Positions 6,417 through 29,728 of a DNA stretch of 32,749 nt are shown one piece after another. The position numbers and the translations under genes were made by a program. This stretch comes from a virus. How positions within the stretch are numbered: position 1 is the first letter of the stretch; each line of letters starts with the position of its first letter. Below the pieces are notes generated by a model. That model searched no databases and was not told where the DNA came from. It saw nothing but the letters and a program-made list of their open reading frames with translations. The stretch is taken from positions 1-32,749 of the IMG/VR virus record IMGVR_UViG_3300033148_008055; one strand, 5' to 3'.

Positions 6417-7765
6417 AGCGCCTCCACCTTGAAGCTGTTGTTCCGGAAATACTTGATCATGGATTGTGCCGACCGCTCCAACTGCTTGATGCGGTGGTGA
6501 CGGACGACGACAACCATCGGGTTCTTCTTACCGTCCATGATCCGTTGGATTCTACCGACGGATTGTTGGAGCATCCCCTCCGACGAAAATTCCGTCAAGA
6601 GGAAGAGAGCGTCCAGAGCCCGATCGTTGAGGGCCTCCTTGGCTAGGTCTGTGGTCCCGAAGCAGATGCGTGTCTCCTTGAGGGCGCGTCGTCTTGTGTC
6701 GGCTCCCTTGACGTCACCAGTGATGAGTCCGGCCCCAGGGAATCGTTCGTATAGTGCGTTGAGCTGATCTTTTGAAAGGCTCAGTGCCAGAATCTTCCGT
6801 CCGGCATCAAGAGCGACACGAAGCTCATGGGTCAGGAAGTCGAGCTCCTCCTTCTGGCACCCAACGTACGCCCTCAGCTTTCGAGCGTGGATGGCGCCGG
6901 TGACATCCTCTATGGCCTCACGAGCCTCCCGACTCTTCACGTCGATTTGGGTTGGTGATCGAATGAATACTACAAGCGGCATGAGGTCCTGGTCCAGGTT
7001 GGAGTGAATCACATCTCCGAGGTGCCACAGGTACGCAATCTCGGAGCCGTCTCCACGAGACACAGTGGCAGTGGCTCCGAAGCGGCGAGCCGGGAATAGA
7101 TCGGATGTCTTGCAGAATAGAGGCGCTGCCAGGTGGTGGACCTCGTCCCATATCACGACACCGAAACGGTTCCGTATCTCTGGGGGGATCTCATCTCTGT
7201 AACGCGCTAACGACCTGATCATTCCTAGCACAATGGGCTGTTCCCATTTCCACTTCTCTGGACCACCTTGAATCCAGCCCACACCACCTTCGAAGGAGAG
7301 AAACTCTTCGATTTCACCACGCCACTGTTCCAGGATTTCTTCCTGGTTCGCGATCACTAGGGTCGGTAAACCCCAGTGGGCGACGGCGTGTAGCATGACG
7401 ACGGTTTTCCCGGCCCCGCAGGCCAGGTTCAAAATTCCTCCCCTAGCTACAGAGAGGTCCTTGAAAGCGTCACGCTGAGTGGTCTTAGACGGATCGAGAT
7501 GATCCAGATTGACTAGGCTACGTATATCGACGTGCTCGAAGTTCGGTGTCAGGTCCACGACTGGACACCGCAACATCTCCGGAGGCACAAGGGCTCGCGG
7601 CACACCGAGATGGTGCGGCGCGTCCCTCCACATCTTGATGACTTCTCTCCCGTCAGTCGGGAGTTCTAGAGAAGCCTTTTGCGATTGGACACTGATGAGA
7701 CTTTTTGGAATCCACAACCAGTCGTTGTAGTAGGCGACGTTGGGATCGAGGATTGGGAACTTCAT
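6413..7765 (-). CDS. Superfamily 2 DNA/RNA helicase (DEVH box)
   Basis: 450 residues. An ATP-dependent nucleic-acid translocase, most like the UvsW/XPB-type helicases used by phages in recombination, fork rescue or R-loop removal. Motif I LACGAGKT lies at 114-121, motif Ia near 136 (TLVIANQEEILEQW), motif II DEVH at 207-210, motif III GATAT at 230-234, and motif VI QQSVGRIQR at 400-408. The TEFSSEGMLQQ stretch before motif VI is the usual motif V-VI approach. The N-terminal 100 residues form an accessory domain with a Q-motif-like TTQRDAF just before motif I. It is encoded three bases after the small zinc/acidic-tail protein and is coupled by ATGA to the next gene. Confidence 0.9.
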   Translation of the reverse strand: MKFPILDPNVAYYNDWLWIPKSLISVQSQKASLELPTDGREVIKMWRDAPHHLGVPRALVPPEMLRCPVVDLTPNFEHVDIRSLVNLDHLDPSKTTQRDAFKDLSVARGGILNLACGAGKTVVMLHAVAHWGLPTLVIANQEEILEQWRGEIEEFLSFEGGVGWIQGGPEKWKWEQPIVLGMIRSLARYRDEIPPEIRNRFGVVIWDEVHHLAAPLFCKTSDLFPARRFGATATVSRGDGSEIAYLWHLGDVIHSNLDQDLMPLVVFIRSPTQIDVKSREAREAIEDVTGAIHARKLRAYVGCQKEELDFLTHELRVALDAGRKILALSLSKDQLNALYERFPGAGLITGDVKGADTRRRALKETRICFGTTDLAKEALNDRALDALFLLTEFSSEGMLQQSVGRIQRIMDGKKNPMVVVVRHHRIKQLERSAQSMIKYFRNNSFKVEAL

Positions 7766-12247: not shown

Positions 12248-14239
12248 ATGTTCTCGTACAGCGAAGGCCCGTACCAGAGATTCAGTAGCACCCGTAGTCG
12301 CATCCTCGGGTCAGCGGCACCATACGGCGTTGCCTACCCGTCGCCATTCTTCGACGTCGCGCACACCTACTTGCCAGACACCGTCAAGCGGATGTTCCGC
12401 TGGTGCCGATACTACTACCTGACGAACCCTGTGATCGCGGCCACCATCAACAAGATGGCGGAGTACCCCATCACCGACATCTCAGTAGCCACGGAGAACG
12501 AGGGGCTCCGTGAGCACTGGGAGACGTTCTTTGAGGATACGATCAAGCTCCGTAGCTTCCTCATAAACCTCGGCCTCTACTACATGTGCTACGGAAACGC
12601 GATCGTTTCCATTCACTACCCATTCGTGAAATTCCTGAAGTGCCGTCACTGCAGCGCCAAGCATCCGGCTCGTGACGTCCAGTACCGATTTCACGGCTAT
12701 CGCTTCGTCATGAAGTGCCCGTCATGCGGCAACAGCGGAGAGGCTATAGCGGAGGACGTCCAGATCAAATCCCCGCGGCAGATTCGCCTCATCATCTGGA
12801 ACCCTGAGGACATCACCGTCGTTCACAACGACATTACCGGGGAGGACACCTACTTCTACGAGGTGCCGAAGTCGTTGAAGAACGACATCCAGATCGGCAA
12901 GCCGCACATCGTTCAGAATATTCCGCAGCTAGTCATAGATGCTGTTCGGAAAGAGAAGCTCATCCGGCTCAACCCCGACAACGTCTTCCACTCCAAGAGG
13001 CCTAGCCTCCTCACCGGGGTGAAAGACGCGGGGATGGGCATCCCGATGCTGCTGCCGGTTCTGAAGGACGTCTTCTATCTTCAGATCCTCAAGAAGGCCA
13101 ACGAGGCCATCGCTCTGGAGCGCGTCTATCCACTGAGTGTCATCTTCCCAGCTAGCGCCGCACCAACAGCCGACGTCTTCAACAACGTCAACCTCATGAA
13201 GTGGCGTGACCAAGTTCAGCAGGAGATTGCCAGGTGGCGAGTTGATCGAGCCTACATACCCGTCATGCCTCTGCCCCTTGGGCACCAGGTCATCGGTGGT
13301 GACGGTAGAGCTCTCATGCTCGGCAACGAAATCAAGATGTGGTCGGACCAAATCATCGCCGGCATGGGCGTGCCCAATGAGTTCGTCTACGGTGGTCTCC
13401 AGTACAGTGGCTCCAACGTCTCGCTACGCATGCTGGAGAACCACTTCCTTCGGTACATCTCAGACCTCAGGCGTTTCGTTCGTGGATTTCTCATCAAGAA
13501 CGTGGCGGCCTACCTGGACTGGCCCGTTGTCGAGGCGCGGTTCAAGCCCTTCAAGATGGCAGACGATCTCCAGCGTAAGGCGCTCATGTTCCAGTACAAC
13601 CAGGCTGGGAAGGTCAGCGACGCGACGCTACTCACTGACTCTGACCTCGATCCGACGAAGGAGAATGAGGCCATGGAGCGGGAGACTGACTCTCGTACTC
13701 AGGCCGTGAAGAAGCAGCAGTTGGCTCAGGCTGAGATTCAGGGTGAGGCCCAGGTCGTCATGGCCAAATTCCAGGCCAGGTCGCAGACCGTCATGAATGA
13801 GGAGATGGCTCAGGCTCAGCAGGGCATGCAGGACTCCGGTCCTGGTGAGGCGCGAGAGGGCCTCGGCCCGAGCCCGGCTGGACAAGGCGGTGGGATGCAG
13901 GGCCAAGGTATGCTGCCTCCGGGACCGCAGCAGGCTCAGCAGCAGGCTCAGCAGCAGGGTCAGCAGCAGGCTCAGCAGGGCCAGCTCGGTGGGGCGCCGC
14001 CTCAGTCTCAGCCCGACCCGCAGACGGTACAGGCCATAGCTCAGCAGCTTGCTGCCTTACCGCAGGGATTCCAGGAGATGTCCTTGCAGCAGCTCGCACA
14101 GCAGAACCCTCTGTTGGCGCAGGCCGTGGCTCAGGTTCTGAGGTCTGGTGGTGCCGCCGCCAGTTCCCCGGACTCAGCCGGTAAGCCTCTCCCCGAACAG
14201 TTGCCTCCGCGCCGTGGACCTGAGTCCGCCTCAATATAG
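12248..14239 (+). CDS. Portal protein with inserted zinc ribbon and Gln-rich tail
   Basis: 663 residues. The portal forms the ring at one head vertex through which DNA is packaged and ejected. Portal-like features are YYYLTNPVIAATINKMA near 55-71, YGNAIVSIHYP near 115-125, IIWNPEDITVV near 182-192, and a central region with GVPNEFVYGGLQYSGSNVS, typical of phage portals. Inserted at 132-160 is a zinc ribbon (CRHC with C132 and C135; CPSC with C157 and C160). The last 170 residues are Gln/Ala/Gly/Pro-rich (QQAQQQ-type runs near 560-580) and look flexible. AGAGGA precedes the start. A hairpin follows the stop. The assignment rests on motif and context reading. Confidence 0.8.
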   Translation: MFSYSEGPYQRFSSTRSRILGSAAPYGVAYPSPFFDVAHTYLPDTVKRMFRWCRYYYLTNPVIAATINKMAEYPITDISVATENEGLREHWETFFEDTIKLRSFLINLGLYYMCYGNAIVSIHYPFVKFLKCRHCSAKHPARDVQYRFHGYRFVMKCPSCGNSGEAIAEDVQIKSPRQIRLIIWNPEDITVVHNDITGEDTYFYEVPKSLKNDIQIGKPHIVQNIPQLVIDAVRKEKLIRLNPDNVFHSKRPSLLTGVKDAGMGIPMLLPVLKDVFYLQILKKANEAIALERVYPLSVIFPASAAPTADVFNNVNLMKWRDQVQQEIARWRVDRAYIPVMPLPLGHQVIGGDGRALMLGNEIKMWSDQIIAGMGVPNEFVYGGLQYSGSNVSLRMLENHFLRYISDLRRFVRGFLIKNVAAYLDWPVVEARFKPFKMADDLQRKALMFQYNQAGKVSDATLLTDSDLDPTKENEAMERETDSRTQAVKKQQLAQAEIQGEAQVVMAKFQARSQTVMNEEMAQAQQGMQDSGPGEAREGLGPSPAGQGGGMQGQGMLPPGPQQAQQQAQQQGQQQAQQGQLGGAPPQSQPDPQTVQAIAQQLAALPQGFQEMSLQQLAQQNPLLAQAVAQVLRSGGAAASSPDSAGKPLPEQLPPRRGPESASI

Positions 14240-14250
14240 ATCTAAATGAT

Positions 14251-14279
14251 GGGGGCCGCCCCATGGTAGGACGGCCCCC
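14251..14279. terminator. GC-rich hairpin, bidirectional terminator between portal and leftward small ORFs
   Basis: GGGGGCCG (14251-14258) pairs with CGGCCCCC (14272-14279); CC/GG extend the stem with one bulged A. There is no strong T-run on either side. It lies 11 bases after the portal stop and just after the end of the leftward small ORFs, so it could end transcription in both directions. Confidence 0.6.
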
Positions 14280-14292
14280 GACGCCGAAACCC

Positions 14293-14385
14293 TTACGGGT
14301 AACGACCTCTCCGCCAGGCCTCCAGGCAACAGATCGTGTCCACCACTAGTGTGGCCGCGAATGCCAGGAGGAATATGCGGATCAG
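14293..14385 (-). CDS. Possible 30-residue small membrane protein (non-ATG start)
   Basis: On the minus strand, CTG at 14385 opens a 30-codon frame ending TAA at 14293. The product is one hydrophobic helix with a basic end: LIRIFLLAFAATLVVDTICC, then LEAWRRGRYP. GGAGG lies four bases before the CTG, and CTGA overlaps the stop of the acidic ORF upstream, the same coupling geometry as ATGA elsewhere in the window. No ATG, GTG or TTG is available upstream in this frame before a stop, so initiation is the weak point. If real it could be a holin-like, spanin-like or other single-pass membrane peptide. It would be missed by standard gene callers. Confidence 0.35.
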   Translation of the reverse strand: MIRIFLLAFAATLVVDTICCLEAWRRGRYP

Positions 14386-14635: not shown

Positions 14636-17600
14636 ATGCCGCGACTTGATCCGCTAGAGAGTCAAGAGGCTCTCAAAGAACGGGTGAAGGAGGCAGTCAA
14701 GGACAGCTTCCCCTATGAGGGTCAGAAGCATATCCTCCGTCTCCAGAACGTAGAGATCACAAACGAGCCTCACATTGGAGATGTTCGAGCTCAGAAGGAG
14801 GCCAAGCTCAAGGGCCGAACCTTCGGCTCCGACGTCAAGGCCACGTTGGAGCTCGTCGACAAGCAGAGCGGGAAGGTCATCGACACACAACGTCGGAAGA
14901 TAGCGACGCTACCCCAAATGACGAGGCGCTACTCGCACATCGTCGCCGGTTCAGAGTATCAGGTCGATAACCTCTGGACCCTAAAGCCCGGTATCTACAC
15001 CCGCATCAAGCAGAACGGTGAGTTCGAGTCTCAGGTCAACGTCAAGGGTGGCGGCTTCCATGTGAAGTTCGATCCTGATTCGCGTCGGTTCAACGTTCGA
15101 CATGGTGGGGCCAACCCACCGCTGTACCCCATCATGAAGGCCCTCGGCGTCGACGACGACACGCTGGAGCGGCAGTGGGGCGCCGAGATCTTGGAGGCCA
15201 ACAAGAAGGTTCGGAATCAGAGCAAGGTCGTCATGGACTTTGCGAAGCGACTTCAACCCCACACCAACATCGAGTCCACGGGTCAGGCTGCCCAGATCAT
15301 CAGGGAGAACTTCGAGGCAGCAGAGCTCCGACCCGACGTCACGCAGCGCACCCTCGGAAAGCCCATCGACCGTGTGAATTCGGAAGCCCTCCTACTCACA
15401 TCTGGACGACTTCTAGGCGTCAGCCGAGGTGCTGAGCCGCCTGATGACCGTGACGCTCTCATGTTCAAGGAGTTGCGCGGCACCGAGGACTTCGTTGGTG
15501 ACCGCATCAAGGCTCAGGGTAGGACGATCGCTAGGAAGATTCACAACAATCTGGACCGACGCGACAAGATAGGTGACATCGTCAGTCCAGACACGTTCAA
15601 CAGGCCGATCTCCTCCTTCTTCACAAAGTCCAGCCTCAGCAACACCTCGGAGCAGACCAACCCACTGTCCATGCTGACGTCGCACCAGAAGACGACCATC
15701 ATGGGTGATGAGGGCGGCGTGAAGTCGGCCCACCGCATCATAGATGAGGCCAAGCTCGTCAATCCCTCCCACTTCGGATACCTAGACCCGCTTCACACCC
15801 CTGAGGGCGAGAAGACTGGTGTCACTCTCCACACCACCATTGGTCTGCGTAGGGACGGGCGTGATGTCACGATCCCCCTGTACAACATCAAGACGGGGAA
15901 GATCGAACGTGTGAATCCTGCAAAGGCATTTGATAACAACGTTGTGATGCCTGATCAGGTGGAATGGAAAGATGGAAAGCCAGTACCCAAGTCAGCCAAA
16001 GTGAAGGCCAGCATGAAGGGGAACGACGTCGGCGCCATTCCGTTCAAGGATGCGGCCTACGTCATGCCGGCTTCGGGTCAGGTATTCAGCATAGCGATGA
16101 ACCTCGTTCCATTTCTCGGTACCAACTCCCAGAACAGAGCCACGATGTCGGGTCGCCATCAGGAGCAGGCCGTCGCCCTCAAGCATCGGGAGAGGCCGCT
16201 GGTTCGGTCCGTCTCAAAAGGTGGGAAGTCGTACGACGACATCATCGGTCAGTCAGTGGCGCAGCACGCTCCGATCGCAGGAAAGGTCACCAAGGTGACA
16301 AAAGATGCGATCCACATCAAGGATAATGCTGGTACCGTTCACGACGTCCCGATCTACGATAATTACCCACTGAACGAGAAGAAGGGTGTCCTAGATAGTC
16401 TGCCCATCGTGAAGTCTGGCGACGACGTGAAGCGCGGACAGCTTATCTCTGACACCACGTTCACGCTTGATGGCTCCTACGCTCCAGGCGTCAACCTCGA
16501 CGTCGCCTACCTCCCGGCTCGTGGCCACAACGTGGAGGACGGCATCGTCATTTCACAGACGGCCGCCGAGAAGCTGACGTCAGAGCACATGTACAAGAAG
16601 CGGCTGTCGACCAGAGAGGGGCAGCTCCTCGGTCTTCCAAAGTACATGGCCTACAACCCCGATAGTATGACGGTGGAGCAGCGATCAAAACTGGATGACG
16701 ACGGCGTCATCAAGCCGGGTCAAGCCGTCATGCCTGGAGACACCCTTGTTGCCGCCATGGCGCCTCGGGTCGTAACCAGGGACGACGTAGATCTCGGTCT
16801 CATCCACAAGAGCCTTGTCAAGCCGTATAAAGATCGCGCTGTGGTCTGGGAAGAGGAGCACCCTGGTAAGGTTGTGGGTGTTACGAAGCGGGGCAAGGGC
16901 GTTGAGGTTCATGTCCGCACAGAAGAGCCTGCTGTCATCGGCGATAAGATCGTAAGTCGTCACGCCAACAAGGGCATCATTACTCAGATCCTTCCCGACA
17001 AGGAGATGCCGCAGACCAAGAGCGGTAGGGCCATAGGCGTTATACACAACCCCATGGGTGTGCCGGGTCGTATGAACGTAGGTCAGATCTTGGAGACGGC
17101 GGCGTCTAAGATTGCCGAGAAGACAGGAAAACCGTTTGATGTCAGTAACTTTGAGCTAAAGGACGCTCGAACCCACATCGAGCAAGAGCTCAAGAGGCAC
17201 GGTCTTTCAGATACTGAGGACCTCGTAGACCCCAAGACGGGACGCACAATTCCCAGCGTCATGACGGGGAAGCAGTACACGTTGAAGCTGCACCACCAAG
17301 TGGATGACAAGATGAGCGCCCGCAGCAGGGACGCTTACGACCGCAACATGATCCCGAAGGGAGGCCTACCTCATGGTGGACAAGCCGTTGGTGCCCTTGA
17401 GCTCTACGGACTACTCGCCCACGGAGCAACACACAACATCCGAGAGATGTCGACCTACAAGTCCGACAAAGCCCAAGGAGGAGACAATGATGCCTTGTGG
17501 GGAGCGCTGCAAGCTGGTGAGCTCCTCCCACCGCCTCGACCGACGTTCGCCTACAACAAGTTTGTGTCCTATCTGAATGGGCTCGGCGTCAACGTAGATA

Positions 17601-20600
17601 AGGACGGAAACTCCTTGGCTCTCTCGCCGATGACGGACAAGCAGGTGATTGCTATGTCCAGTGGGAAGATCAAAGACGGCGGGAAGATGGTGAAGATGAG
17701 GACGCTCGAACCCGAGAAGGGTGGGCTCTTCGACCCAACAGTTACCGGCGGGGAGGGTGGGAAGAAGTGGTCCCACATCAGGCTCTCCGAGGCTATGCCG
17801 AATCCAATATTCGAGCGTGCCATCATGTCGATCTCTGGCATTCGGAAGCCACAGTTCGAGAGGATCATCAGTGGTAAGGAGGGCGTCACTCCTGACGGGC
17901 GCATCGTTCCGGCTGGTGAGAGTGGCGCGCAGTACGGCCCGAGCGCCGTGTCCCGACTGCTCAGTGGTGTCGACGTCAAGAAGGAGCTCAAAAAGGAGGA
18001 GACCAGGGTCGCGAAACTCAAGGGCCAACAACTCAATGAGACGAACAAGAGGATCAAGTATCTCCGTGCCCTGAACAAGTTGGGGATGACGCCGACGGAC
18101 GCCTACATGACGCAGAACGTGCCTGTGATGCCCCCAATCATGCGGCCCCTCAGTGTCATGGATGACGGCAGTGTCCAGTTCGAGGACATCAACCATCTCT
18201 ACAAGCAGGTGTCGCTGACGTCTCAGAAGCTCGGTACCATCCACAGGTTGACCCCTGACGAAGAGAGGGCCCCTCTCCGCGCCGAGCTCTACGACGAGCT
18301 CAAGGCGCTGGCCGGGACCGGAGGCTCGCTCAATCGTCGTTACCCCGGCATCCTCGACACCATCGCCGGGGTGAGCCCGAAGACTGGTTACTTCCAGGAC
18401 AAGCTCGTGAAGCGGAAGCAGGACATGTCACTCCGCTCTACCATCATCCCGGACCCCTCACTGTCCCTGGATGAGATCGGCATCCCTCGTAAGGCTGCAA
18501 TGGAGTCCTACAAGCCGTTCGTAGTCCGGGAGCTTCGGCAGACCTTCGGCATGACCCCCCTTACGGCGCAGGAGGCGATCCGGGACAACCGGGACATTGC
18601 CAACAAGGCGCTGGACAGAGTAACAGCGGACCGACCCATCATCGTGAAGCGTGATCCCGTACTTCACATGTACGGTATCCAGGCGTTCAAGCCGCGACTG
18701 ACGGAGGGTAAGGCTATCCGTATCCACCCCCTGGTGACGTCTGGCTACAACGCGGACTTCGACGGTGATGCCATGGCGGCCTTCGTTCCGATAACGAAAG
18801 AGGCCGTTGAAGAGGCGCGGCGTATGATGCCGTCCAACCTCCTCTTCAGTCCGTCCTCTGGCAAGGCCGCGTACACCCCGATCAAGGAGATGCAGGTTGG
18901 TCTCTACAGCTTGACTGAGATCGGTAAGAGGACGAGGAAAACCTTCGAGTCACGGAAGGAATTGGAAAGAGCCGTCAATCGCGGCGACGTAGGCGTCACC
19001 GACGTCGTGAAGGTGAGGGGTATTACAGGAGACGACGCAACCCCCACTACAGCGGGTCGCCTCCGCATCTTCAGCGCAATGCCCAAGAAGATGCGCGTCA
19101 AGATGAGCGACAGTGGTCTGCTCCACAACACCAAGTATCGATTTACGAAGAAGGATCAGGCGCAGCTCTTCAACGAGATGGCCCGTGTCGACCCATCGGG
19201 TTACGCAGAGTCCATCGACAAGATGAAGGATCTTGGTAATGAGCAGGCCTTCCTCTCCGGTCTCACCATCAACCTACGTGACCTGAAGGTTCACCGAGAC
19301 ATTCGTACACCAATTCTCAGAGAGGCTGCTGAGGAGACGGCAGGCCTCGACGTACGGAAGCCTGCCGACGCCCAGAAGATGGTGACGGTCTACGAGAAGG
19401 CCCTCATGAGGTTGGAGGACGGCGTGAAGCGGAAGGCCGCCCTTGTCGATACGAACCTAGACCGTTTGGAGATGGCAGCAGGTATCAAAGGAAATGCCTA
19501 TCGGCAGCTCACTGCAGCACCGATCCTGTTCACGGATGCGTCGGGTAGGGTTGTTCCGTCACCAGTTACGAGCTCCTACTCCGAAGGCATGGACGTGGCT
19601 GACTACTGGGCCTCGATGAGCGGTGGTCGGAAGGGCATCATCCAGAAGGTTCAGTCCGTGGCAGAGCCAGGGTATCTGTCCAAGCTCATGATGAACGCCA
19701 CGATGAACCAGCTCGTTCAGGGAGATGACTGTGGCACGACTCGCGGCATCAGTGTGAGTACCGACGAGCCTGATGTCATTGGTCGATACATGCAGCAGGA
19801 CGTCGAGCTTTCAGACGGTAGGAAGCTGAAGCGAGATACCCTCGTCACGCCCGAGGTGCTGTCGGACTTGCGAGGCAACCGTGTGCAGAAGGTGGTCGTC
19901 CGCTCCCCGATGAAGTGCAACCACGCCAAGGGCGTGTGCCCGAAATGCTACGGCATCAACGAGAAGGGCCAGCTTCACGATCAGGGAACCAATATCGGTG
20001 TCATTGCGGCGCAGGCTCTTGGTGAGCGGGGCGTGCAGCTCTCGCTACGCGCCTTCCATTCCGGCGGCGTCCACGACCCGAGGGGAGCAAGCCTTGCTGG
20101 GCAGGGACTGGATCGATCCAAGGAGCTCCTCAACATGCCCCAGACCTTGAAGGGGTCAGCGACGTTGGCCTCTGCTAGTGGTAAGGTAGACGACGTGAAG
20201 AAGGACCCGGCAGGTGGCTGGAACGTGTCAGTTGAGGGAAAGCGGCACTACGTCCCGGCGGATAGGCGGCTCAGTGTTCGCAAGGGGAGCAAGGTGAAGA
20301 AGGGCGCACCCATCTCCACGGGCCCCGTGAACCCGCACGAGATGCTTCCCCTCACTGGTATCGAGCCCGTGCAGAACTACTTGGCTGACGAGCTCCACAA
20401 GCTCTATGCTCCCGAAGGGATTCGTAGAAGGAACACGGAGGTCGTTGTTCGATCTATGTCCAACGTCACCCGTGTCATGGACCCGGGGGATCACCCTGAC
20501 TACGTGAGGGGCGACTTTGCCAACACGTCTCAGGTCCAGTATCTCAACAAGACTCAGCTCCGAGGGAAGGACATGAACCCAATCCGACATGAGCCGATCC

Positions 20601-20794
20601 TGAAGGGAGTCCGACAGATCCCACAGGACGTTATGGAGGACTGGCTGGCGCGTCTCAACCATGAGGAGCTAAAATCAACTGTGATAGAGGGTGCCTCACG
20701 GGGGTGGCAGTCCAATATCCACGGCGAGCACCCAATTCCAGGCGTCGTGTTCGGCGCTGAGTTTGGCCTCGGCGACACGCCTGGGGTGTACTAG
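14636..20794 (+). CDS. Single-chain multisubunit-type RNA polymerase: beta and beta-prime fused
   Basis: 2052 residues in one uninterrupted frame. Beta part, about 1-987: HTPEGE at 387-392, NRATMSGRHQ at 500-509, NVEDGIVIS from 632 and GDKIVSRHANKG at 769-780, ending with the QEM-like REMSTYKSD region and LNGLGVNV. A linker of only about nine residues (988-996) follows. Beta-prime part: RTLEPEKGGLF from 1022, KRKQDMSLRSTIIPD lid/rudder region, the catalytic NADFDGD at 1372-1378 with D1374, D1376 and D1378, and the second zinc site C1699, C1761, C1768, C1771. The trigger-loop region GERGVQLSLRAFH from 1796 keeps R1805 and H1808. The C-terminus extends through the beta-prime end (NEVQ-like ADELHKLY, EVVVRSM). 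The N-terminal beta-prime zinc site is absent. It should be catalytically competent. Its place among virion genes permits packaging in the particle, which is unproven. No alpha, omega or sigma is recognised nearby. Confidence 0.96.
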   Translation: MPRLDPLESQEALKERVKEAVKDSFPYEGQKHILRLQNVEITNEPHIGDVRAQKEAKLKGRTFGSDVKATLELVDKQSGKVIDTQRRKIATLPQMTRRYSHIVAGSEYQVDNLWTLKPGIYTRIKQNGEFESQVNVKGGGFHVKFDPDSRRFNVRHGGANPPLYPIMKALGVDDDTLERQWGAEILEANKKVRNQSKVVMDFAKRLQPHTNIESTGQAAQIIRENFEAAELRPDVTQRTLGKPIDRVNSEALLLTSGRLLGVSRGAEPPDDRDALMFKELRGTEDFVGDRIKAQGRTIARKIHNNLDRRDKIGDIVSPDTFNRPISSFFTKSSLSNTSEQTNPLSMLTSHQKTTIMGDEGGVKSAHRIIDEAKLVNPSHFGYLDPLHTPEGEKTGVTLHTTIGLRRDGRDVTIPLYNIKTGKIERVNPAKAFDNNVVMPDQVEWKDGKPVPKSAKVKASMKGNDVGAIPFKDAAYVMPASGQVFSIAMNLVPFLGTNSQNRATMSGRHQEQAVALKHRERPLVRSVSKGGKSYDDIIGQSVAQHAPIAGKVTKVTKDAIHIKDNAGTVHDVPIYDNYPLNEKKGVLDSLPIVKSGDDVKRGQLISDTTFTLDGSYAPGVNLDVAYLPARGHNVEDGIVISQTAAEKLTSEHMYKKRLSTREGQLLGLPKYMAYNPDSMTVEQRSKLDDDGVIKPGQAVMPGDTLVAAMAPRVVTRDDVDLGLIHKSLVKPYKDRAVVWEEEHPGKVVGVTKRGKGVEVHVRTEEPAVIGDKIVSRHANKGIITQILPDKEMPQTKSGRAIGVIHNPMGVPGRMNVGQILETAASKIAEKTGKPFDVSNFELKDARTHIEQELKRHGLSDTEDLVDPKTGRTIPSVMTGKQYTLKLHHQVDDKMSARSRDAYDRNMIPKGGLPHGGQAVGALELYGLLAHGATHNIREMSTYKSDKAQGGDNDALWGALQAGELLPPPRPTFAYNKFVSYLNGLGVNVDKDGNSLALSPMTDKQVIAMSSGKIKDGGKMVKMRTLEPEKGGLFDPTVTGGEGGKKWSHIRLSEAMPNPIFERAIMSISGIRKPQFERIISGKEGVTPDGRIVPAGESGAQYGPSAVSRLLSGVDVKKELKKEETRVAKLKGQQLNETNKRIKYLRALNKLGMTPTDAYMTQNVPVMPPIMRPLSVMDDGSVQFEDINHLYKQVSLTSQKLGTIHRLTPDEERAPLRAELYDELKALAGTGGSLNRRYPGILDTIAGVSPKTGYFQDKLVKRKQDMSLRSTIIPDPSLSLDEIGIPRKAAMESYKPFVVRELRQTFGMTPLTAQEAIRDNRDIANKALDRVTADRPIIVKRDPVLHMYGIQAFKPRLTEGKAIRIHPLVTSGYNADFDGDAMAAFVPITKEAVEEARRMMPSNLLFSPSSGKAAYTPIKEMQVGLYSLTEIGKRTRKTFESRKELERAVNRGDVGVTDVVKVRGITGDDATPTTAGRLRIFSAMPKKMRVKMSDSGLLHNTKYRFTKKDQAQLFNEMARVDPSGYAESIDKMKDLGNEQAFLSGLTINLRDLKVHRDIRTPILREAAEETAGLDVRKPADAQKMVTVYEKALMRLEDGVKRKAALVDTNLDRLEMAAGIKGNAYRQLTAAPILFTDASGRVVPSPVTSSYSEGMDVADYWASMSGGRKGIIQKVQSVAEPGYLSKLMMNATMNQLVQGDDCGTTRGISVSTDEPDVIGRYMQQDVELSDGRKLKRDTLVTPEVLSDLRGNRVQKVVVRSPMKCNHAKGVCPKCYGINEKGQLHDQGTNIGVIAAQALGERGVQLSLRAFHSGGVHDPRGASLAGQGLDRSKELLNMPQTLKGSATLASASGKVDDVKKDPAGGWNVSVEGKRHYVPADRRLSVRKGSKVKKGAPISTGPVNPHEMLPLTGIEPVQNYLADELHKLYAPEGIRRRNTEVVVRSMSNVTRVMDPGDHPDYVRGDFANTSQVQYLNKTQLRGKDMNPIRHEPILKGVRQIPQDVMEDWLARLNHEELKSTVIEGASRGWQSNIHGEHPIPGVVFGAEFGLGDTPGVY

Positions 20795-21192: not shown

Positions 21193-22374
21193 ATGCCCAG
21201 AGCTGCAAGGGATTCGATCGTCGAGCGCGGGGCGAACCGCGTTCGGATCGAAGAAGGACGTATCCTCAACGTCAACATGAGGCGTTGGACGGCTGACGTT
21301 CGCACCCGAGAATCACAGCGGACCTATCTCGACGTACAGTGGTCGAACCCCTACTTTCACTTTGCTGGTGGCGAAGGCATCTTCTTCATGCCTGAGGTCG
21401 GGGCCAAGGTGATGGTGTGTCGGCCTAGTTCATCCGACCCCTTCATCATGGCCTTCACGACCACCTTCGAGCGGGGTGCTCGGCAGCCGGATGACACCGG
21501 TGATACCCCTGCGGTTTCTGAGCATTCAACAGACCCCGCTCCTGATGAGGGTAATGACAGCGTGACGTTCCGAAGCGGGAGGCCTTACCTCCAGCAGGGC
21601 GACATCATGCTGCGTACGCGGGACAAGAATCACATCTGGCTGCGTCGTGGTGGTGTCTTGGAGGTGGCGTCGACGGCTCTTTCCAAGCGTCTCTACATCC
21701 CATTGCTCAACTACATCCGGGACATCTGTGAAAACTACTCGATGTGGACGGCGGGTGGGGCTCTGTCATGGACTGTTGAGCGAAGCGACACTGATCCAGA
21801 TGATGAAGCACGGGCCGTTCTGTCCATAGCTGCTCGTCAGAATGCTCAGGACGAACTTGCGTCGGTGTCGGTGCAGATCGGTCACGTCGATGACACGAAG
21901 CGCATGCGCGTCGTCATAGCTCCGCAAGCCATCAACACCCGGACCTTCGAGGTGACGGGGGAGGCTTCCTACACCCTCGACATCGATGAAGAGGGTACCG
22001 TCGAGTCCTTTGCCAAGAAAGACGACAAGCGCGAGATCCAAGGGGAGTTGGAGTGGCAAATTCGTGGGCAGTCTACGTATCGATACAGTGGTGGCCTCAC
22101 TGAGGAGATCACCGGAGATCACAACGTGTCGGTGAGTGGTAACCACACTATGGAGGCATCGTCTTCTACGGAGCGGTGTTCGGCAGGGAAGGTCATCGAG
22201 GCTGCTTCCGTTGACCTTGGCGCGCAGGGGGGCCGCCAAGTCGTCGTTGCTACTGAGGCATTCATGGCGTTCATGGCTGGGCACACCCACCCCGTATCTG
22301 GATCAGCGACCGGTATACCGGTCCCCTCACTGCCGCCCATAGCGTTCACATCAAAGCGAGTGAAGGCGGTGTGA
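21193..22374 (+). CDS. Baseplate central-spike protein (gp5/VgrG-like)
   Basis: 393 residues. The N-terminal OB-fold region spans about 20-90 (GRILNVNMRRWTADVRT, then EGIFFMPEVGAKVMVCRP), the usual opening of phage baseplate hub and spike proteins. The middle has a surface-like QQGDIMLRTRDKNHIWLRRG. The C-terminal third is repetitive beta (TGDHNVSVSGNHTMEAS), expected of a trimeric beta-helix needle. It ends with HTHPVSG at 364-370 and TGIPVPSLPP, a tip motif common in spike proteins. A spike of this type implies a contractile-tailed phage. The ribosome binding site is weak and the gene begins four bases after the previous stop. Confidence 0.82.
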   Translation: MPRAARDSIVERGANRVRIEEGRILNVNMRRWTADVRTRESQRTYLDVQWSNPYFHFAGGEGIFFMPEVGAKVMVCRPSSSDPFIMAFTTTFERGARQPDDTGDTPAVSEHSTDPAPDEGNDSVTFRSGRPYLQQGDIMLRTRDKNHIWLRRGGVLEVASTALSKRLYIPLLNYIRDICENYSMWTAGGALSWTVERSDTDPDDEARAVLSIAARQNAQDELASVSVQIGHVDDTKRMRVVIAPQAINTRTFEVTGEASYTLDIDEEGTVESFAKKDDKREIQGELEWQIRGQSTYRYSGGLTEEITGDHNVSVSGNHTMEASSSTERCSAGKVIEAASVDLGAQGGRQVVVATEAFMAFMAGHTHPVSGSATGIPVPSLPPIAFTSKRVKAV

Positions 22375-22375
22375 T

Positions 22376-22672
22376 ATGGCTCTAGACGCCGATGTGTTTG
22401 CTGATCTTGCGGAGGCCTACTTCCAGGAAGAGATGGAGGCTGCCTTCCCAAACGTGCTGCGTAATAGGACTGTGGTGTCAGAGGTTCGAGACGACGGTTC
22501 AGAGGAGTTCAGCTTCAACGATGAGTATGGTCCACCCGAGATCGACCGAGAGAAGATGCGCCCTATGTTCAAGGCAGTAGGGCGTGCTATCGTAGAGTTC
22601 CTGAAGGGGAGCGCGGAAGTGAACGACCAAGGAACGGCCGCTGTCCCCAGTGGTAATTGGAGGATCACATGA
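22376..22672 (+). CDS. Small protein following the baseplate spike (98 residues)
   Basis: It starts one base after the spike stop and ends in an ATGA overlap with the next gene. Acidic and helical (ALDADVFADLAEAYFQEEME), with an aromatic/acidic middle (FSFNDEYGPPEIDREKM) and a final helix near KAVGRAIVEFLKG. Short proteins of this type often sit directly after baseplate spikes in myovirus genomes and may be baseplate components. I recognise no family and the role is inferred from position. Confidence 0.65.
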   Translation: MALDADVFADLAEAYFQEEMEAAFPNVLRNRTVVSEVRDDGSEEFSFNDEYGPPEIDREKMRPMFKAVGRAIVEFLKGSAEVNDQGTAAVPSGNWRIT

Positions 22673-24675
22673 CCGAGCCGCTGTTCCTGACGCCCTCGGC
22701 TCCAGTGCCGATCGAGAAGATTGGAATGGAGTCACGGCTCTCCGACAACGCCGACGACTGGCCTCAGGAAGTCATGCAGGAGGCTTTCAAGCAGCACCCA
22801 TATCTGGGTCAGTACGACGTCAGCCCTGTGATGCGGGACGTCGAGGATGAGCGGGGCTACGCCCTGGGGTACCTCGTCATCCGCAACAAGACGGCGCGTC
22901 TCCAGACCCCCGCTGGTCAGCAGCTCTCCGCAGATGCTGGCGTTCGCACCATGAAGGTGCCAGTGATCGTCAAGGAGCAGAAGCTCAAGGAGTTCGACGT
23001 CTTCATCGACGCCCGCGGTCGCATGATGCCACTCAGTGAGGAGCGCGTTCGCCAGGGTCTGTTCCGCCCCGACATCTTCGACTCCTACGGCACTCCGAAC
23101 CAGAACGCTACGATGATCGGCGACCAGATGGTTCCGCCGGATCGCTCCGAGAGGATGGTCAGTGGGCGTGGCAACGTCGAGGAAGGCGTCAAGACGTCGG
23201 CTGCGAAGCCGATGCTCATGGAGGCCATCTCCGGGACGATGCTCCAGTCTGACATCAGTCGGGTCGAGGCGGAGATGAATGCGGACAAGGCTCTGGCCCG
23301 CAGTCTCATCACGAAGGAGGCGACGTCTGCCTTCATTCAGCTCATCGGTAGCGTCGACCCCGTGACGGCTGAAGACGTCGTGAAGACGGCGTCGGATCTC
23401 CAGGTGCCGGACACGGCTCAAGTCTCACGGGTTGGTGACGAGTACCACATCAAGCTGGCGCACAGCCAGTTCTTCGACCCGAAGACCTACGTGTTGGACC
23501 GCATCAAGACAGCAGCCGTGGTGGGGGAGGACGCCGTAGCTACCACGGATCAGGTGGGAGCCACCGTCATCACAACGGATGCCGTCGTGAAGGACGACCT
23601 CACGACTGACGACGAAGTCGGTGAGATCGAGCGATTCGGGGAGTACAAGGTACGTGACGTTGAGGACAATGAGCATCTTGGGTGGGTATTCCCCAAGGTC
23701 CTCGACTTCGGCGGTGCGTCTCTGCCGTTGAAGGTGTTCACGAATGGAAGCGCGCACGCCGTCCAGTCAGACATGGTTGGCAGCTTCGTCGGTAGGGGCA
23801 CCAACATCATCTCCTCCGACAAGCTGGAGGGTGACGGCTTCTTCTACGTCCTCACCAAGGACGGTTCTGCTCTGGCCTTCATACCGGGTGCCGTCAAGTC
23901 GGCCTTCCAGGACAAGAACGGACCCGGGGTAGTCTTCGAGTCCATCATGGGTGGGCGGTTCAAGCTGCGAGTTGTCCCTGACCTCAAGAAGCTCGCCAAG
24001 CTCGGTGACGACGAGTACGGACTTCCGGCCGCGGTGCAGTGGTGTCCGCTTGGTGCCGGCGCGGCCCTCACCCTCGTTGATGATCCTGGCCTCTTCACGA
24101 AGACGGCCAGTGGCATGAATCCCAACGGTTCCCTCTTCATCATCAGTGACGGCAACCTTTGGTCTTTCACTGGCAGGGCCGTCGAGAAGTTGGCTGCTGA
24201 TCAGCGTCAATTCCTGCAGTCTGAGGACGCCCTCTTCCTTGCCGTCGCGGCAGGAGTTCACCCGAAGCTAGCCATGCGCAAGTTGGCCGAGGCTGGGCAG
24301 CGGGGTGAGTCTTTCGTGGCTGGGTGCCGTCCCATCATTCCTCTGCGTGAGTCGCTTCAAGCCGCTGAGGAGATGGCGAAGGAAGCCATCGCCGGCATGC
24401 CGCCGAAGCACTTCCTCTTGAAGGAGGCGTCGGGCCTCGACGACGTCAGCACCGTGGACAAGGTCCTGAGTCTTGGCTTCATAACGCCAGAGAACCTCTC
24501 GACCTTCATCGAGTACGTCCCCGACTTCGAGGAGGCCATCGGCAAGCTGGCGTACCTCCTCGTCGCCGTGCGGTTGGGTCTCCCCGACGTCCCCGAGGTG
24601 TCGGTGAAGAACGCCATGGAGCGCCTGGAGGATACCTGTAGAGCTCTGAAGGAGCTCATCTACCGTAAGGCGTAG
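22669..24675 (+). CDS. Large virion-associated protein of unknown function (668 residues)
   Basis: The ATG at 22669 is preceded by GGAGG and overlaps the previous stop; an upstream in-frame TTG at 22657 is rejected. The protein has no recognised domain. The first 180 residues are mixed alpha/beta (YLGQYDVSPVMRDVEDE, KEFDVFIDARGRMMPLSEER). The middle is beta-rich with Asp/Thr runs (VATTDQVGATVITTDAVV). The C-terminal third is helical (EEAIGKLAYLLVAVRLGLPD). Lys-x-Ala motifs recur at least ten times (RIKTAA, VKTAS, FTKTAS, MAKEA, LLKEA), denser than in most neighbours. A baseplate, tail or internal head protein is plausible from its position after the spike. Confidence 0.75.
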   Translation: MTEPLFLTPSAPVPIEKIGMESRLSDNADDWPQEVMQEAFKQHPYLGQYDVSPVMRDVEDERGYALGYLVIRNKTARLQTPAGQQLSADAGVRTMKVPVIVKEQKLKEFDVFIDARGRMMPLSEERVRQGLFRPDIFDSYGTPNQNATMIGDQMVPPDRSERMVSGRGNVEEGVKTSAAKPMLMEAISGTMLQSDISRVEAEMNADKALARSLITKEATSAFIQLIGSVDPVTAEDVVKTASDLQVPDTAQVSRVGDEYHIKLAHSQFFDPKTYVLDRIKTAAVVGEDAVATTDQVGATVITTDAVVKDDLTTDDEVGEIERFGEYKVRDVEDNEHLGWVFPKVLDFGGASLPLKVFTNGSAHAVQSDMVGSFVGRGTNIISSDKLEGDGFFYVLTKDGSALAFIPGAVKSAFQDKNGPGVVFESIMGGRFKLRVVPDLKKLAKLGDDEYGLPAAVQWCPLGAGAALTLVDDPGLFTKTASGMNPNGSLFIISDGNLWSFTGRAVEKLAADQRQFLQSEDALFLAVAAGVHPKLAMRKLAEAGQRGESFVAGCRPIIPLRESLQAAEEMAKEAIAGMPPKHFLLKEASGLDDVSTVDKVLSLGFITPENLSTFIEYVPDFEEAIGKLAYLLVAVRLGLPDVPEVSVKNAMERLEDTCRALKELIYRKA

Positions 24676-26680: not shown

Positions 26681-27193
26681 TTACATCTGCTTCAAAGCTA
26701 TCCGAAGATCGAACGTCTTCCCTGAGTGGTCGTGCCGTCTCGCGTGGACGTGCAGGACTTCATGTATGACGCCGTCTCCGGATGCTCCTTCCATGATCAT
26801 GTCATAGACTTGGCTTAGCGACTTTTTGTCGATCACTGCCGAGGGCACTGCCTCGAAATCGTAGGCAACTACTATGGCGTCGCCGTGGTCCGGGCAACAG
26901 TGTTCGATGCTGCGTATCTTCTTCGTTACGCGAGCGTCTATTGCGGCACATGCGCGATTGATGATCTCGTCCAGCCATTGGTAGTCCGCGGCGCTACCAA
27001 TGGATTTGAATCGAGCTTCGAATGCGGAGTTCGGGCACATGTCACACTGCTTTCCGTAGATTTTCCCTAGGCACGATGCACGAGACGTCGTTGGGTCATC
27101 TAAGTGTATCCGTATCTTACCGTCCGACACGCTGGTACGACGGCCCGTTCGCATTGGGCACGGTACGTCTCCCCCTCTGTCACGGGAAGTCAT
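26681..27193 (-). CDS. Hypothetical Cys/His-rich protein (170 residues)
   Basis: ATG 27193 with GAGGT five bases upstream, overlapping the end of the preceding gene by 14 bases. Cysteines and histidines are clustered: C41, C50 and C53 (KQCDMCPNS), then HCCPDHGD at 98-105, and HVHARRHDH near the end. This could bind zinc. Between them is a helical region (WLDEIINRACAAIDARV) and a beta strand DAIVVAYDFEA. The His-rich end resembles metal-binding tails. No known domain can be named. It is co-transcribed with the 210-residue gene upstream. Confidence 0.65.
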   Translation of the reverse strand: MTSRDRGGDVPCPMRTGRRTSVSDGKIRIHLDDPTTSRASCLGKIYGKQCDMCPNSAFEARFKSIGSAADYQWLDEIINRACAAIDARVTKKIRSIEHCCPDHGDAIVVAYDFEAVPSAVIDKKSLSQVYDMIMEGASGDGVIHEVLHVHARRHDHSGKTFDLRIALKQM

Positions 27194-27812
27194 TTATGAC
27201 CTCTTCTGGGTGGACACCGAAAGGCGTCTGCACCAGGAGGTCAGCCACGAATGAATCCGTGATCCTAGATACGTCGACTGGGAACGAGTGAACGTGGAGC
27301 CACGAATCATCATTGCACGACCGTACCATCTTCTCAACGGCCTCGTGGACGACGCGAAGTGGGGAGCCAATGCTGAATGCGAGGACGTTCGCCGTCGTGT
27401 GCCGGTGGCTGTCTCCGGCGCCGACGAACTTCGTCCACATGTCCCCCCGCATCTTGATCGTGAACATAGCTGATTTACGGTTTTCCAAGATGAGGTAGCC
27501 ATTCTTGCCGGGCCCATTTATGACAATGACGCCGCGAACATTGGTGGCTTCTCCGTGCCTCTTGAACGAAACCGTGATGGTTCGGATGCCCTTCATATCG
27601 AGCAGATCGCCGTAGCACTTCGCCTTTACTTGATCAGCGAGTGTGTGCTTCGCGGCGAGTTTTGTGAAGTCGTCGGGCTCCTTACCTCCGAAGATGTCGC
27701 GATTCAGAGCCTCTTCTGATTCGTAGAGGCCGCAGGCCAATGCACTCTCGACCGCGAGACGGTCGAGACTACTCGAAATAGCATCATCACCCTTCTTCCC
27801 TTTCTTGGTCAT
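27180..27812 (-). CDS. Hypothetical protein (210 residues)
   Basis: The start is ATG 27812, with GGAGG four bases upstream; the GTG at 27824 lacks such a site. The N-terminus is basic (MTKKGKKGDD). The middle is beta-rich (GIRTITVSFKRHGEATNVRG, YLILENRKSAMFTIKMRG) and the end is helical then beta. No motif points to a function. A TGCTATAAG extended -10-like element on the minus strand around 27850-27858 may be its promoter in the 83-bp divergent gap shared with the large terminase gene. Confidence 0.65.
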   Translation of the reverse strand: MTKKGKKGDDAISSSLDRLAVESALACGLYESEEALNRDIFGGKEPDDFTKLAAKHTLADQVKAKCYGDLLDMKGIRTITVSFKRHGEATNVRGVIVINGPGKNGYLILENRKSAMFTIKMRGDMWTKFVGAGDSHRHTTANVLAFSIGSPLRVVHEAVEKMVRSCNDDSWLHVHSFPVDVSRITDSFVADLLVQTPFGVHPEEVINDFP

Positions 27813-27895
27813 CAATCCTCCCACACGAAAATGCTAACTCCGTATCATCCTTATAGCAGTGGACTGGATCATTTTTATGTCATAGGGTTGAGTCG

Positions 27896-29728
27896 ATGCA
27901 CGCTGAAGAATTGCCGCGCGATGAGCTCTACGACGTCGCCAAGAATCGAGAAGAAAACGGACTCGGATATAGCTCCAAGGTAGAGGAGGAGATTGAGGCT
28001 CTGCTCTCGACGGAGGATGAAATCTACGAGGAGACGGAGATCGATATCATTCTGGAGGATGAGGAGAGACGCATCGTCCTTCCCGACTCACGGGTAGAGG
28101 TGAGTCCGTCTGAGTTCACGGAGTTCGCCATCCGTATCCCCATTGCTGGTAGCATCGAGCCCTTCAGTTTCGCGGAGCGGCCTTACCTACGGCAGGTCTA
28201 CGACACCTCACACCACCGCGTTCTCATGAAGTGTGCCCGTCAGACCGAGAAGTCGACGGGCCTCGGCAACCTCTCCGTGGCGTACTCCAGTCTCAACGTC
28301 GCCTTCAAGGTGCTGTTTGTGACGGCCACGGCTCAGCAAGCTACGGTCTTCTCTGTTGACCGAATTCGTGAAGTCATCGAGATCAGCCCCGTCATCAACG
28401 GAATGACGACGGCGAAGCTGGCGCAGAACGTCTTCTTCAAGCAGTTCCGAAACCGATCACAGATTCGTATTCGATACGCCTTCCTCTCTGCTGACCGTGT
28501 CCGCGGCATATCCGCCGACCTCATTCTGATCGATGAGGTGCAGGACATCATGACGCAGAATATACCCGTCATTGAACAGTGCGCCTCTCACTCCTTCTGG
28601 AAGCTGTACCGCTACTCCGGCACGCCGAAGAGCCTGGACAACACGATAGAGAAATACTGGGCTGACTTCTCGACTCAGAACGAGTGGCTCGTCCCCTGTG
28701 ACTGCCGCAAGCCTCACCGACATTGGAACAGTCTTGGTGAGGCTAACATCGGTAAGAAGGGTCCGATTTGTAGTCGGTGCGGCAAGGCCATATACCCCCT
28801 CGGTCCTGAGTCTCGCTGGGTTGCAAAGCAGCCCATGACTGTAGACAACAGGGATCGCGTCACCTTCGAGGGATTCCGCATCCCTCAGTTGATGGTGCCT
28901 TGGATCATCAATAATGAGAAGGCGTGGAACGACAACGTCCTCTTTGCTTTGAATCGGTATGAGCGAGCTCAGTTCTACAACGAGGTCCTCGGCCTCAGCT
29001 ACGACAGTGGCACCCGACCGCTGACGCAGGCGCAGCTCCAGGCGTGTTGCATCGACGACATCGACATGACGGAGGCCAGGGAGAACGCCCTGCGGTGTGA
29101 TGGGGGTGTCTTCGTCGGCATCGACTGGGGCACGGCGGAGAACGAGTCCTACACCGTGCTTGTTCTTGGTGGGTACATCAAGGGTGTCTTCACGATCTTC
29201 TTTGCTCACCGCTTCACGGGACGTGAGGTTGAGCCCCCTGTACAGCTTGAGATGATCGCCAAGATGCTGGTCGAGGTGAACTTCTCTGTTGCCGGGACTG
29301 ACTACGGCGTTGGCTACGACAGGAACGATTGGCTAGCTCGTCAGTTCGGTATTGATCGCATCAAGAAGATGCAGCACGTTGGTCGTCAGAAGGTGAAGGT
29401 AAAGTGGGAGCCTGGCCTCTCCCGTTTCACCCTGAACCGAACCGAGGTACTGTCCGATCTCTTCAATGCCATCAAGAGGGGGAAAAACGTCATCCGATTC
29501 CCGAACTGGAATCAGTTCATGGACCCTCATGGCAGTGACTTCCTCAACATCTTCATGGAGTATTCGGAGCAGCTCCGGATGGTCCAATATAAGATCAGCC
29601 CTGGTAAGAGCGACGACACGGCTCACGCCGTGCTCTATTGCTTCTTGGCCTCTATGCTTGTGAGGCCTCGCCCCGACATCCTCATTCCTATGCAAGAGGG
29701 ACAGATCGAAGAGATGATGAGCAGCTAA
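27896..29728 (+). CDS. Terminase large subunit (TerL)
   Basis: 610 residues. The motor ATPase and nuclease that packages DNA into the prohead. After an acidic N-terminal extension of about 80 residues, the ATPase domain has MKCARQTEKSTG at 111-122 (phosphate loop of the R-Q-x-x-K-S/T type), LILIDEVQD at 209-217 (Walker B plus catalytic Glu) and YSGTP near 240 (coupling motif). A zinc ribbon follows at 268-295 (CDC with C268 and C270; CSRC with C292 and C295). The RNase H-like nuclease has FVGIDWGT (D410), GTDYGVGYD (D469) and DDTAHAV near 588. The ribosome binding site is weak. A hairpin directly follows. Confidence 0.93.
   Translation: MHAEELPRDELYDVAKNREENGLGYSSKVEEEIEALLSTEDEIYEETEIDIILEDEERRIVLPDSRVEVSPSEFTEFAIRIPIAGSIEPFSFAERPYLRQVYDTSHHRVLMKCARQTEKSTGLGNLSVAYSSLNVAFKVLFVTATAQQATVFSVDRIREVIEISPVINGMTTAKLAQNVFFKQFRNRSQIRIRYAFLSADRVRGISADLILIDEVQDIMTQNIPVIEQCASHSFWKLYRYSGTPKSLDNTIEKYWADFSTQNEWLVPCDCRKPHRHWNSLGEANIGKKGPICSRCGKAIYPLGPESRWVAKQPMTVDNRDRVTFEGFRIPQLMVPWIINNEKAWNDNVLFALNRYERAQFYNEVLGLSYDSGTRPLTQAQLQACCIDDIDMTEARENALRCDGGVFVGIDWGTAENESYTVLVLGGYIKGVFTIFFAHRFTGREVEPPVQLEMIAKMLVEVNFSVAGTDYGVGYDRNDWLARQFGIDRIKKMQHVGRQKVKVKWEPGLSRFTLNRTEVLSDLFNAIKRGKNVIRFPNWNQFMDPHGSDFLNIFMEYSEQLRMVQYKISPGKSDDTAHAVLYCFLASMLVRPRPDILIPMQEGQIEEMMSS

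Follow-up and report, generated by a model that had tools for sequence, protein, structure and literature searches.

A full-length beta/beta-prime RNA polymerase fusion encoded in the virion gene block of a tailed-phage lineage

The IMG/VR virus record IMGVR_UViG_3300033148_008055, a linear record of 32,749 bp analysed at its full length (hereafter the window), carries on its plus strand a gene for a fused beta/beta-prime RNA polymerase (RNAP), whose features are collected in Table 1. The open reading frame (ORF) begins with ATG, specifies 2,052 amino acids (aa) and contains neither internal stop codons nor frameshifts. An earlier reading made from the sequence alone had claimed here a complete fused enzyme within a phage virion gene block, and both the single frame and the conserved gene block described below bear it out. 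The motifs named in that sequence-only reading, HTPEGE, NRATMSG and GDKIVSRHANKG (residues 769-780) for beta, and NADFDGD, the cysteines of the second zinc site (Zn2) and the trigger-loop residues R1805 and H1808 for beta-prime, are all present in the ORF. Profile searches, which had been proposed as a check, place beta domains (Pfam PF00562, 8e-58; PF04565; PF04560) at residues 338-946 and, further along the same chain, beta-prime domains (PF04997; PF00623, 1e-26; PF04983; PF04998, 4e-25) at residues 1112-1839, and a phmmer comparison with beta-prime chains of the Protein Data Bank (PDB) gives a best E value of 3.5e-109, far above chance. A weak Peptidase_M23 match (residues 1839-1895) falls within the C-terminal part of beta-prime and was taken as chance. 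The best PHROG matches, 25354 and 24349, were likewise set aside, as their lengths are those of Firmicutes RpoC and RpoB, and they are probably bacterial contigs filed among phage records.

When aligned with the enzymes of Escherichia coli and other bacteria, nearly all of both subunits is represented in the fused chain. The beta part keeps the flap and the DPBB-B lysines, and the beta-prime part, which starts at about E. coli residue 20, retains the clamp helices, switch region, NADFDGD, bridge helix, trigger loop, Zn2 and C-terminus. Across 92 nearly full-length members of the family (the window included, near-copies removed), the three Asp residues of NADFDGD, K771, K779, D635 and H1808 are invariant, the Zn2 cysteines are kept in 85-86 members, the position of R1805 is mostly occupied by K, R or N, and a cysteine at the site of the deleted beta-prime N-terminal zinc ribbon was found in none (0/92). 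The Asp triad, beta lysines, trigger-loop His and Zn2 expected of a bacterial-type RNAP are all in place, and the ORF is the complete catalytic core of a bacterial-type DNA-dependent RNAP in one chain. The rifampicin-resistance positions of E. coli (513, 514, 516, 526, 529 and 531) are occupied in the window by N, T, E, S, K and T, respectively; judging from these residues, the fused enzyme is likely to be rifampicin-resistant.

The two parts are joined practically without added linker. In the alignment with E. coli, beta (ending at E. coli residue 1342) runs to about residue 992, and residue 993 already belongs to beta-prime, so that the linker of about nine residues claimed earlier must be given up. 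The segment leading from the end of beta into beta-prime is 19 residues long in 91 of the 92 relatives. Two overlapping halves of the protein (residues 1-1010 and 880-2052) were modelled from 57-row family alignments, and both high-confidence models match their cellular counterparts: the first half (predicted local distance difference test score, pLDDT, 86.8) is closest in the PDB to the cyanobacterial Syn7942 RNAP beta chain 9dvs_C (template modelling score, TM, 0.80), and the second (pLDDT 90.5) to Bacillus subtilis RpoC 9a4w_B (TM 0.82), its best match among predicted viral proteins reaching TM 0.72.

Scans of IMG/VR revealed relatives of the fused RNAP in very many contigs. The beta core was found in 171 loci and the beta-prime N-terminal core in 173; both lie on one ORF in 170 loci, which amount to 133 distinct ORFs, and the sole locus of the 171 that has no single frame (L239) is broken only by TGA codons. 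The gene in question (L239:4980-11039, IMGVR_UViG_3300000172_000001) yields one frame of 2,019 aa if five TGA codons are read as Trp; because the RNAP frame is open only under this reading, a recoded TGA in the host or phage is suggested. Beta-prime is intact past DPBB-A in the window and in 147 of 157 loci, and is distributed over separate ORFs in 10 loci. It is likewise cut after DPBB-A in two isolates, Salmonella phage Arash and Vibrio phage D69, and in Vibrio phage D181 the RNAP gene is broken by a further insertion with a homing endonuclease gene. The split-form sequences placed in trees form one clade; its nesting inside the fused members is supported by FastTree and is left unresolved by the mixture model, and the beta/beta-prime fusion is common to split and unsplit forms whichever tree holds. 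The fusion is a trait of a large phage lineage and not a peculiarity of the window phage. In trees of phage and bacterial sequences, all phage members lie across one fully supported branch from the bacteria. Relatives of Arash and D69 are among the best phage matches of the window RNAP, and the window shares with the Arash-type lineage homologous RNAP, portal and terminase proteins (34-36%, 30% and 27% identity, respectively) as well as the same fusion junction. The contigs of the largest relatives are mostly 177-198 kb long, those of Arash and D69 being 181 kb and 187 kb.

Several variants of the gene deserve mention in their own right. In-frame inserts of about 340-500 aa occur at conserved motifs in the RNAP ORFs of eight relatives (L068, L069, L078, L080, L088, L215, L224 and L244), after HTPE (window residue 390), inside NADFDG|D (1377), in the trigger loop (1804), near GDK..NKG (773-783) and at residue 942. 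Pfam finds LAGLIDADG_3 in all three insert-bearing proteins tested and Intein_splicing in one, and by these sequence features the inserts are probably inteins. A very divergent fused RNAP (L248:4740-11471; 2,244-aa frame, 26% identity to the window) lies outside the main family in the FastTree tree. Cobetia phage Carin-5 (L312) and Yersinia phage GN1 (L313) encode beta and beta-prime as separate genes, and in Carin-5 a sigma factor gene stands directly upstream.

The genes surrounding the fusion are listed in Table 1. Among known phages, the portal and terminase proteins are nearest to those of Arash and Vibrio phages D69, D148 and D181 (for terminase, the best matches are Arash, D181, D148 and D69), so that RNAP, portal and terminase agree. 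The same-strand order portal, RNAP, probable baseplate protein, unknown virion-block protein and terminase is kept in those relatives whose contigs reach far enough. The sequence-only reading had put the polymerase between portal and baseplate genes; the portal assignment stands, with 30% identity to the Arash portal, and the baseplate call is a weak one. The opposite strand encodes a primase, a DnaB helicase, a uracil-DNA glycosylase (5317-6003, minus strand; PF03167, 1.6e-30) and a superfamily 2 helicase. Directly 3' of the portal gene, at 14240-14300, lies a strong G+C-rich hairpin (GGGGGCCG...CGGCCCCC), and the gap of nearly 400 bp before the RNAP gene is otherwise apparently without genes. 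The window ends about 3 kb past the terminase gene, short of the place that matches the sigma genes of its relatives.

Table 1. Positions in the window of the fused polymerase gene, its parts and neighbouring features.
Feature	Position	Strand	Basis
Fused beta/beta-prime RNA polymerase gene	14636..20794	+	single ORF; Pfam, PHROG, PDB and NCBIfam matches; structure models
Beta part, residues 1-992	14636..17611	+	alignment; without E. coli lineage inserts
Fusion junction, residues 979-997, YLNGLGVNVDKDGNSLALS	17570..17626	+	alignment; 92-member comparison
Beta-prime part, residues 993-2052	17612..20791	+	alignment
Deleted beta-prime N-terminal zinc ribbon, place of E. coli C70/C72/C85/C88	17720..17776	+	alignment
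Catalytic NADFDGD, residues 1372-1378	18749..18769	+	92-member alignment
Second zinc site (Zn2), Cys 1699, 1761, 1768, 1771	19730..19948	+	alignment
Trigger loop, R1805 to H1808	20048..20059	+	92-member alignment
Portal protein	12248..14239	+	PHROG portal 2e-4; 30% identity to Arash gp204, 32% to D69; synteny
Probable baseplate protein	21193..22374	+	weak PHROG/Pfam baseplate matches; synteny
Unknown protein of conserved virion gene block	22657..24675	+	synteny
Promoter-like TGCTATAAG	27850..27858	-	gap upstream of minus-strand ORF 27180-27824
Terminase large subunit	27896..29728	+	PHROG 1e-53; PF05876

The possibility, raised from the position of the gene, that the enzyme is packaged in the virion has gained published mass spectrometry of a relative, and for the window phage itself it stands by extension. 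In the proteomics of Arash virions, gp206, which comprises beta and the N-terminal part of beta-prime, is the most detected protein (3,516 spectra, 128 unique peptides), and gp216 (C-terminal beta-prime) and the sigma factor gp10 account for 1,210 and 467 spectra (PMC10585845). From these published counts we computed 2.31 spectra per residue for gp206, 2.00 for gp216 and 2.00 for gp10, the portal and capsid proteins reaching 1.51 and 4.34, respectively; such counts are crude, and the near 1:1:1 ratio of the three proteins is what would be expected of a complex in the particle. By analogy with its relatives, the RNAP is probably packaged in the virion of the window phage. The gene for Arash gp217, a SNF2/RapA-like helicase, adjoins that for the C-terminal part of beta-prime (L263:1261-2679), and this protein is per residue as abundant in the virion as the RNAP. 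No homologue of gp217 was matched in D69 or in the relatives G006 and G008, and the helicase of the window (6413-7765) is not a gp217 homologue at the threshold used, so that a general RNAP-coupled SNF2 helicase was rejected.

A sigma region-3 match is present in 28 of 31 large relatives, and homologues of Arash gp10 are encoded at 20 of 20 fetched sigma loci, including those of G006 and G008 (30% identity), whose RNAPs are 55-57% identical to that of the window. The sigma genes lie on the RNAP strand in the genomes compared, and those of Arash and D69 belong to the block following the terminase gene. By analogy, the fused enzyme probably works with a phage sigma factor. No alpha domain was detected in 21 large relatives, control genomes being positive, and the same 21 genomes have one DPBB-A gene each, with no second RNAP found in this search, which a very divergent enzyme would escape.

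Unbiased k-mer counts in the intergenic gaps of Arash point to TGGTATAAG upstream of minus-strand genes, and in D69 to TGTTATAAG. The motif TGnTATAAG lies genome-wide on the minus strand in 18 of 18 cases in Arash and 24 of 25 in D69, where the copies are mostly intergenic; among permutations of the hexamer, the next best reaches 6 in Arash (none near TGnTATAAG) and 15 in D69. No enrichment is seen for the host-like form with a final T (minus strand, G versus T: 18 versus 2 in Arash, 24 versus 3 in D69). Over 1.79 Mb of relatives, 32 copies occur on the minus strand versus 16.7 expected, and 7 on the plus strand versus 19.1 expected. The window has two copies, both on the minus strand, versus 0.43 expected, and the one at 27858 is found at the same place in its closest relative (L005). 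The motif, on the strand opposite to RNAP, is common to Arash, Vibrio phage D69 and the window; k-mer enrichment did not recover it in G006 and G008, two GC-rich relatives, and among the other relatives it is visible in pooled strand counts. A second motif, TAAAATA(TA), a putative promoter, lies on the plus strand in 12 of 14 cases in D69 and, more weakly, in 11 of 15 in Arash, where one copy is 34 nt upstream of gp216. On the late strand of D69 (L302-L311) and Arash (L260-L263), TAAAATA(TA) is reminiscent of T4 late promoters. In G008 (L284-L292), the repeat GCTGGGAGGTTTAGTGATCCCAGAC, which includes a CTGGGA/TCCCAG dyad, occurs about 25 times, chiefly on the plus strand and sometimes in short arrays.

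The reading that we favour, and consider reasonably probable, is that the fused enzyme is a single-chain RNAP core which is carried in the virion, depends on a sigma factor and initiates phage transcription. As beta and beta-prime are joined end to end, the crab claw would assemble in cis, and so could do without the alpha dimer, the scaffold of the cellular enzyme. Expression of the fused RNAP from the virion gene block would come late. The particle would take up the enzyme and a small phage sigma factor of the Arash gp10 type, and the enzyme would reach the cell with the DNA and there initiate transcription of the early/middle genes, on the opposite strand, at TGnTATAAG promoters; a second promoter class would probably serve the late genes afterwards. 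For the window phage, we infer packaging, injection, sigma pairing, alpha-independence and promoter assignment from its relatives, whereas the single-chain core, its conserved catalytic anatomy and the lineage-wide fusion are established. Several points weigh against this reading. No sigma gene was recognised in the 32.7-kb window, nor was one found above cut-off in the contigs of its closest relatives; TGnTATAAG resembles an extended -10 element, and the host RNAP might read it; the enzyme may depend on host alpha, omega or sigma. As for packaging, the Arash enzyme is the split form and spectral counts per residue are a crude measure. The Arash particle preparation also held primase, ligase and ribonucleotide reductase, with few unique peptides for their size, so that some carry-over is certain, and the authors leave open whether proteins were packaged or carried over (PMC10585845).

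These points bear on three other explanations. The least credible by far, and one that the sequence-only reading had itself raised, is that of a mis-assembled or contaminating host rpoBC in which two genes were fused by chance. In its favour, rpoB and rpoC are neighbours in bacteria, and the fused-rpoBC profile NF007172 is the best NCBIfam match. However, this match scores 557.5 bits against a curated cut-off of 5372, the bacterial equivalog cut-offs are not reached (TIGR02386, 508.6 of 963.5 bits; TIGR02013, 325.6 of 801 bits), the best matches among bacterial genomes are 27-32% identical to the fused RNAP, and the phage proteins form a clade of their own. Mis-assembly is refuted because the fused ORF recurs from one independent sample to another, the same fusion standing beside portal and terminase in many independent contigs; a stop or frameshift between the halves, also considered earlier, is excluded by the intact ORF and by the 133 distinct fused relatives.

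Far more plausible than such an artefact, and still improbable, is a non-virion enzyme made in the infected cell to transcribe middle or late genes, in which case the Arash particles would have carried over an abundant protein. The Arash virion lists do contain clearly non-structural enzymes and the authors name carry-over (PMC10585845), the RNAP gene is on the late strand, and phiKZ-like phages have a second, non-virion enzyme (PMC7598289). Yet the Arash primase, ligase and helicase gp197 are each represented by only two unique peptides (PMC10585845), whereas the RNAP chains and sigma stand near 1:1:1 and above the portal; moreover, the RNAP gene sits between the portal and terminase genes throughout the lineage, and no second RNAP gene for early use was detected in the 21 large relatives. 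A little less unlikely is a hybrid enzyme, in which the fused core recruits host alpha, omega or primary sigma and reads host-like promoters. The retention of the clamp helices, the flap and the C-terminal beta region in the alignment would fit such recruitment, as would the undetected alpha gene and the extended -10 resemblance of TGnTATAAG. Against it stand the conservation of the gp10-type sigma in the lineage, the last base of the motif, which is G and not the T of the host -10 consensus, and the loss of the beta-prime zinc ribbon.

The crAss-like phage phi14:2 carries the single-chain RNAP gp66, which is a virion enzyme. Fused rpoBC also occurs in Helicobacter and Wolbachia (NCBIfam NF007172, NF011417). 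In these bacteria, beta is joined to beta-prime at the ends as in the phage enzyme, which differs from the cellular proteins of about 2,840-2,890 aa in having neither the beta-prime N-terminal zinc ribbon nor the lineage inserts. Both barrels also lie in one chain in phi14:2 gp66, P23-45 gp64/gp96 and YonO, but these are highly divergent and reduced, whereas the full-length beta and beta-prime domains of the window give direct matches to bacterial profiles; of the P23-45 proteins, gp96 is a virion enzyme (PMC10770324). The phiKZ and AR9 enzymes are also two-barrel phage RNAPs, without alpha or omega genes and with one kind packaged, but they are divided into at least 4-5 chains, with two sets in each phage, and have no sigma homologues (PMC7598289); the window family has one chain, one gene and, in relatives, a sigma factor, and kinship with phiKZ was ruled out by architecture and gene content.

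Closer parallels are the multi-subunit-RNAP-encoding Caudovirales (mReC; Weinheimer and Aylward, 2020; PMC7481178), metagenomic tailed phages with bacterial-like beta and beta-prime, whose RNAPs form a clade separate from cellular ones, as the window family does when tested against bacteria. In the mReC paper, beta and beta-prime are described as subunits, and fusion within the group goes unmentioned (PMC7481178). All 8 capsid proteins detected in mReC match PF07068 (PMC7481178); this capsid family was found in 0 of 21 large relatives (T4 control positive), and no capsid gene was recognised in the window. The window terminase matches PF05876 only, that of Arash PF05876 and PF03237, the latter being the mReC type. 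One sample number (3300017989, locus L210) is shared with the 97 contigs published as mReC, among which fused genes may well be present without being declared. The viral gene for "RNAP beta and beta prime" that branches at the mReC base (PMC10159854) is possibly a fused member of the family. Arash (gp206 and gp216; PMC10585845) belongs to the same family: its RNAP adjoins the portal gene on the strand of the virion genes, its portal and terminase are homologous, and its RNAP was found in virions. Arash, D69 and others of one clade differ in the cut of beta-prime after DPBB-A, near the split position of cyanobacterial and phiKZ-type beta-prime. In the passages of the Arash paper considered here, gp206 is called "beta" and a fusion is not mentioned (PMC10585845). 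A literature search that left most subscription journals and preprints uncovered turned up no account of phages in which bacterial-type beta and beta-prime are fused at full length. The single-chain RNAPs of crAss-like phages, YonO and P23-45, the split phiKZ/AR9 enzymes, and the mReC and Arash RNAPs are already known.

Known phage RNAPs of cellular descent have many chains and no sigma (phiKZ, AR9) or are divergent single chains (crAss-like, P23-45, YonO). We give about an even chance to the wider proposal that a widespread tailed-phage lineage of varied base composition carries in its virions a complete sigma-dependent machine, made up of a one-chain, bacterial-type, alpha-free core with its own sigma, which reads lineage-specific TGnTATAAG promoters. 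If true, it would be, as far as could be found, the first case of virions delivering an RNAP holoenzyme with cellular architecture, and its core would be a natural single chain independent of the alpha scaffold. With a near-complete bacterial-type core in one chain, a co-conserved sigma and a shared promoter-like motif, alpha-free assembly and initiation would become directly testable on a single expressible polypeptide, and the fused family is a large set of markers for tracing how viral RNAPs arose. By analogy with Arash, the phages of this lineage probably bring their own transcription machine into the cell.

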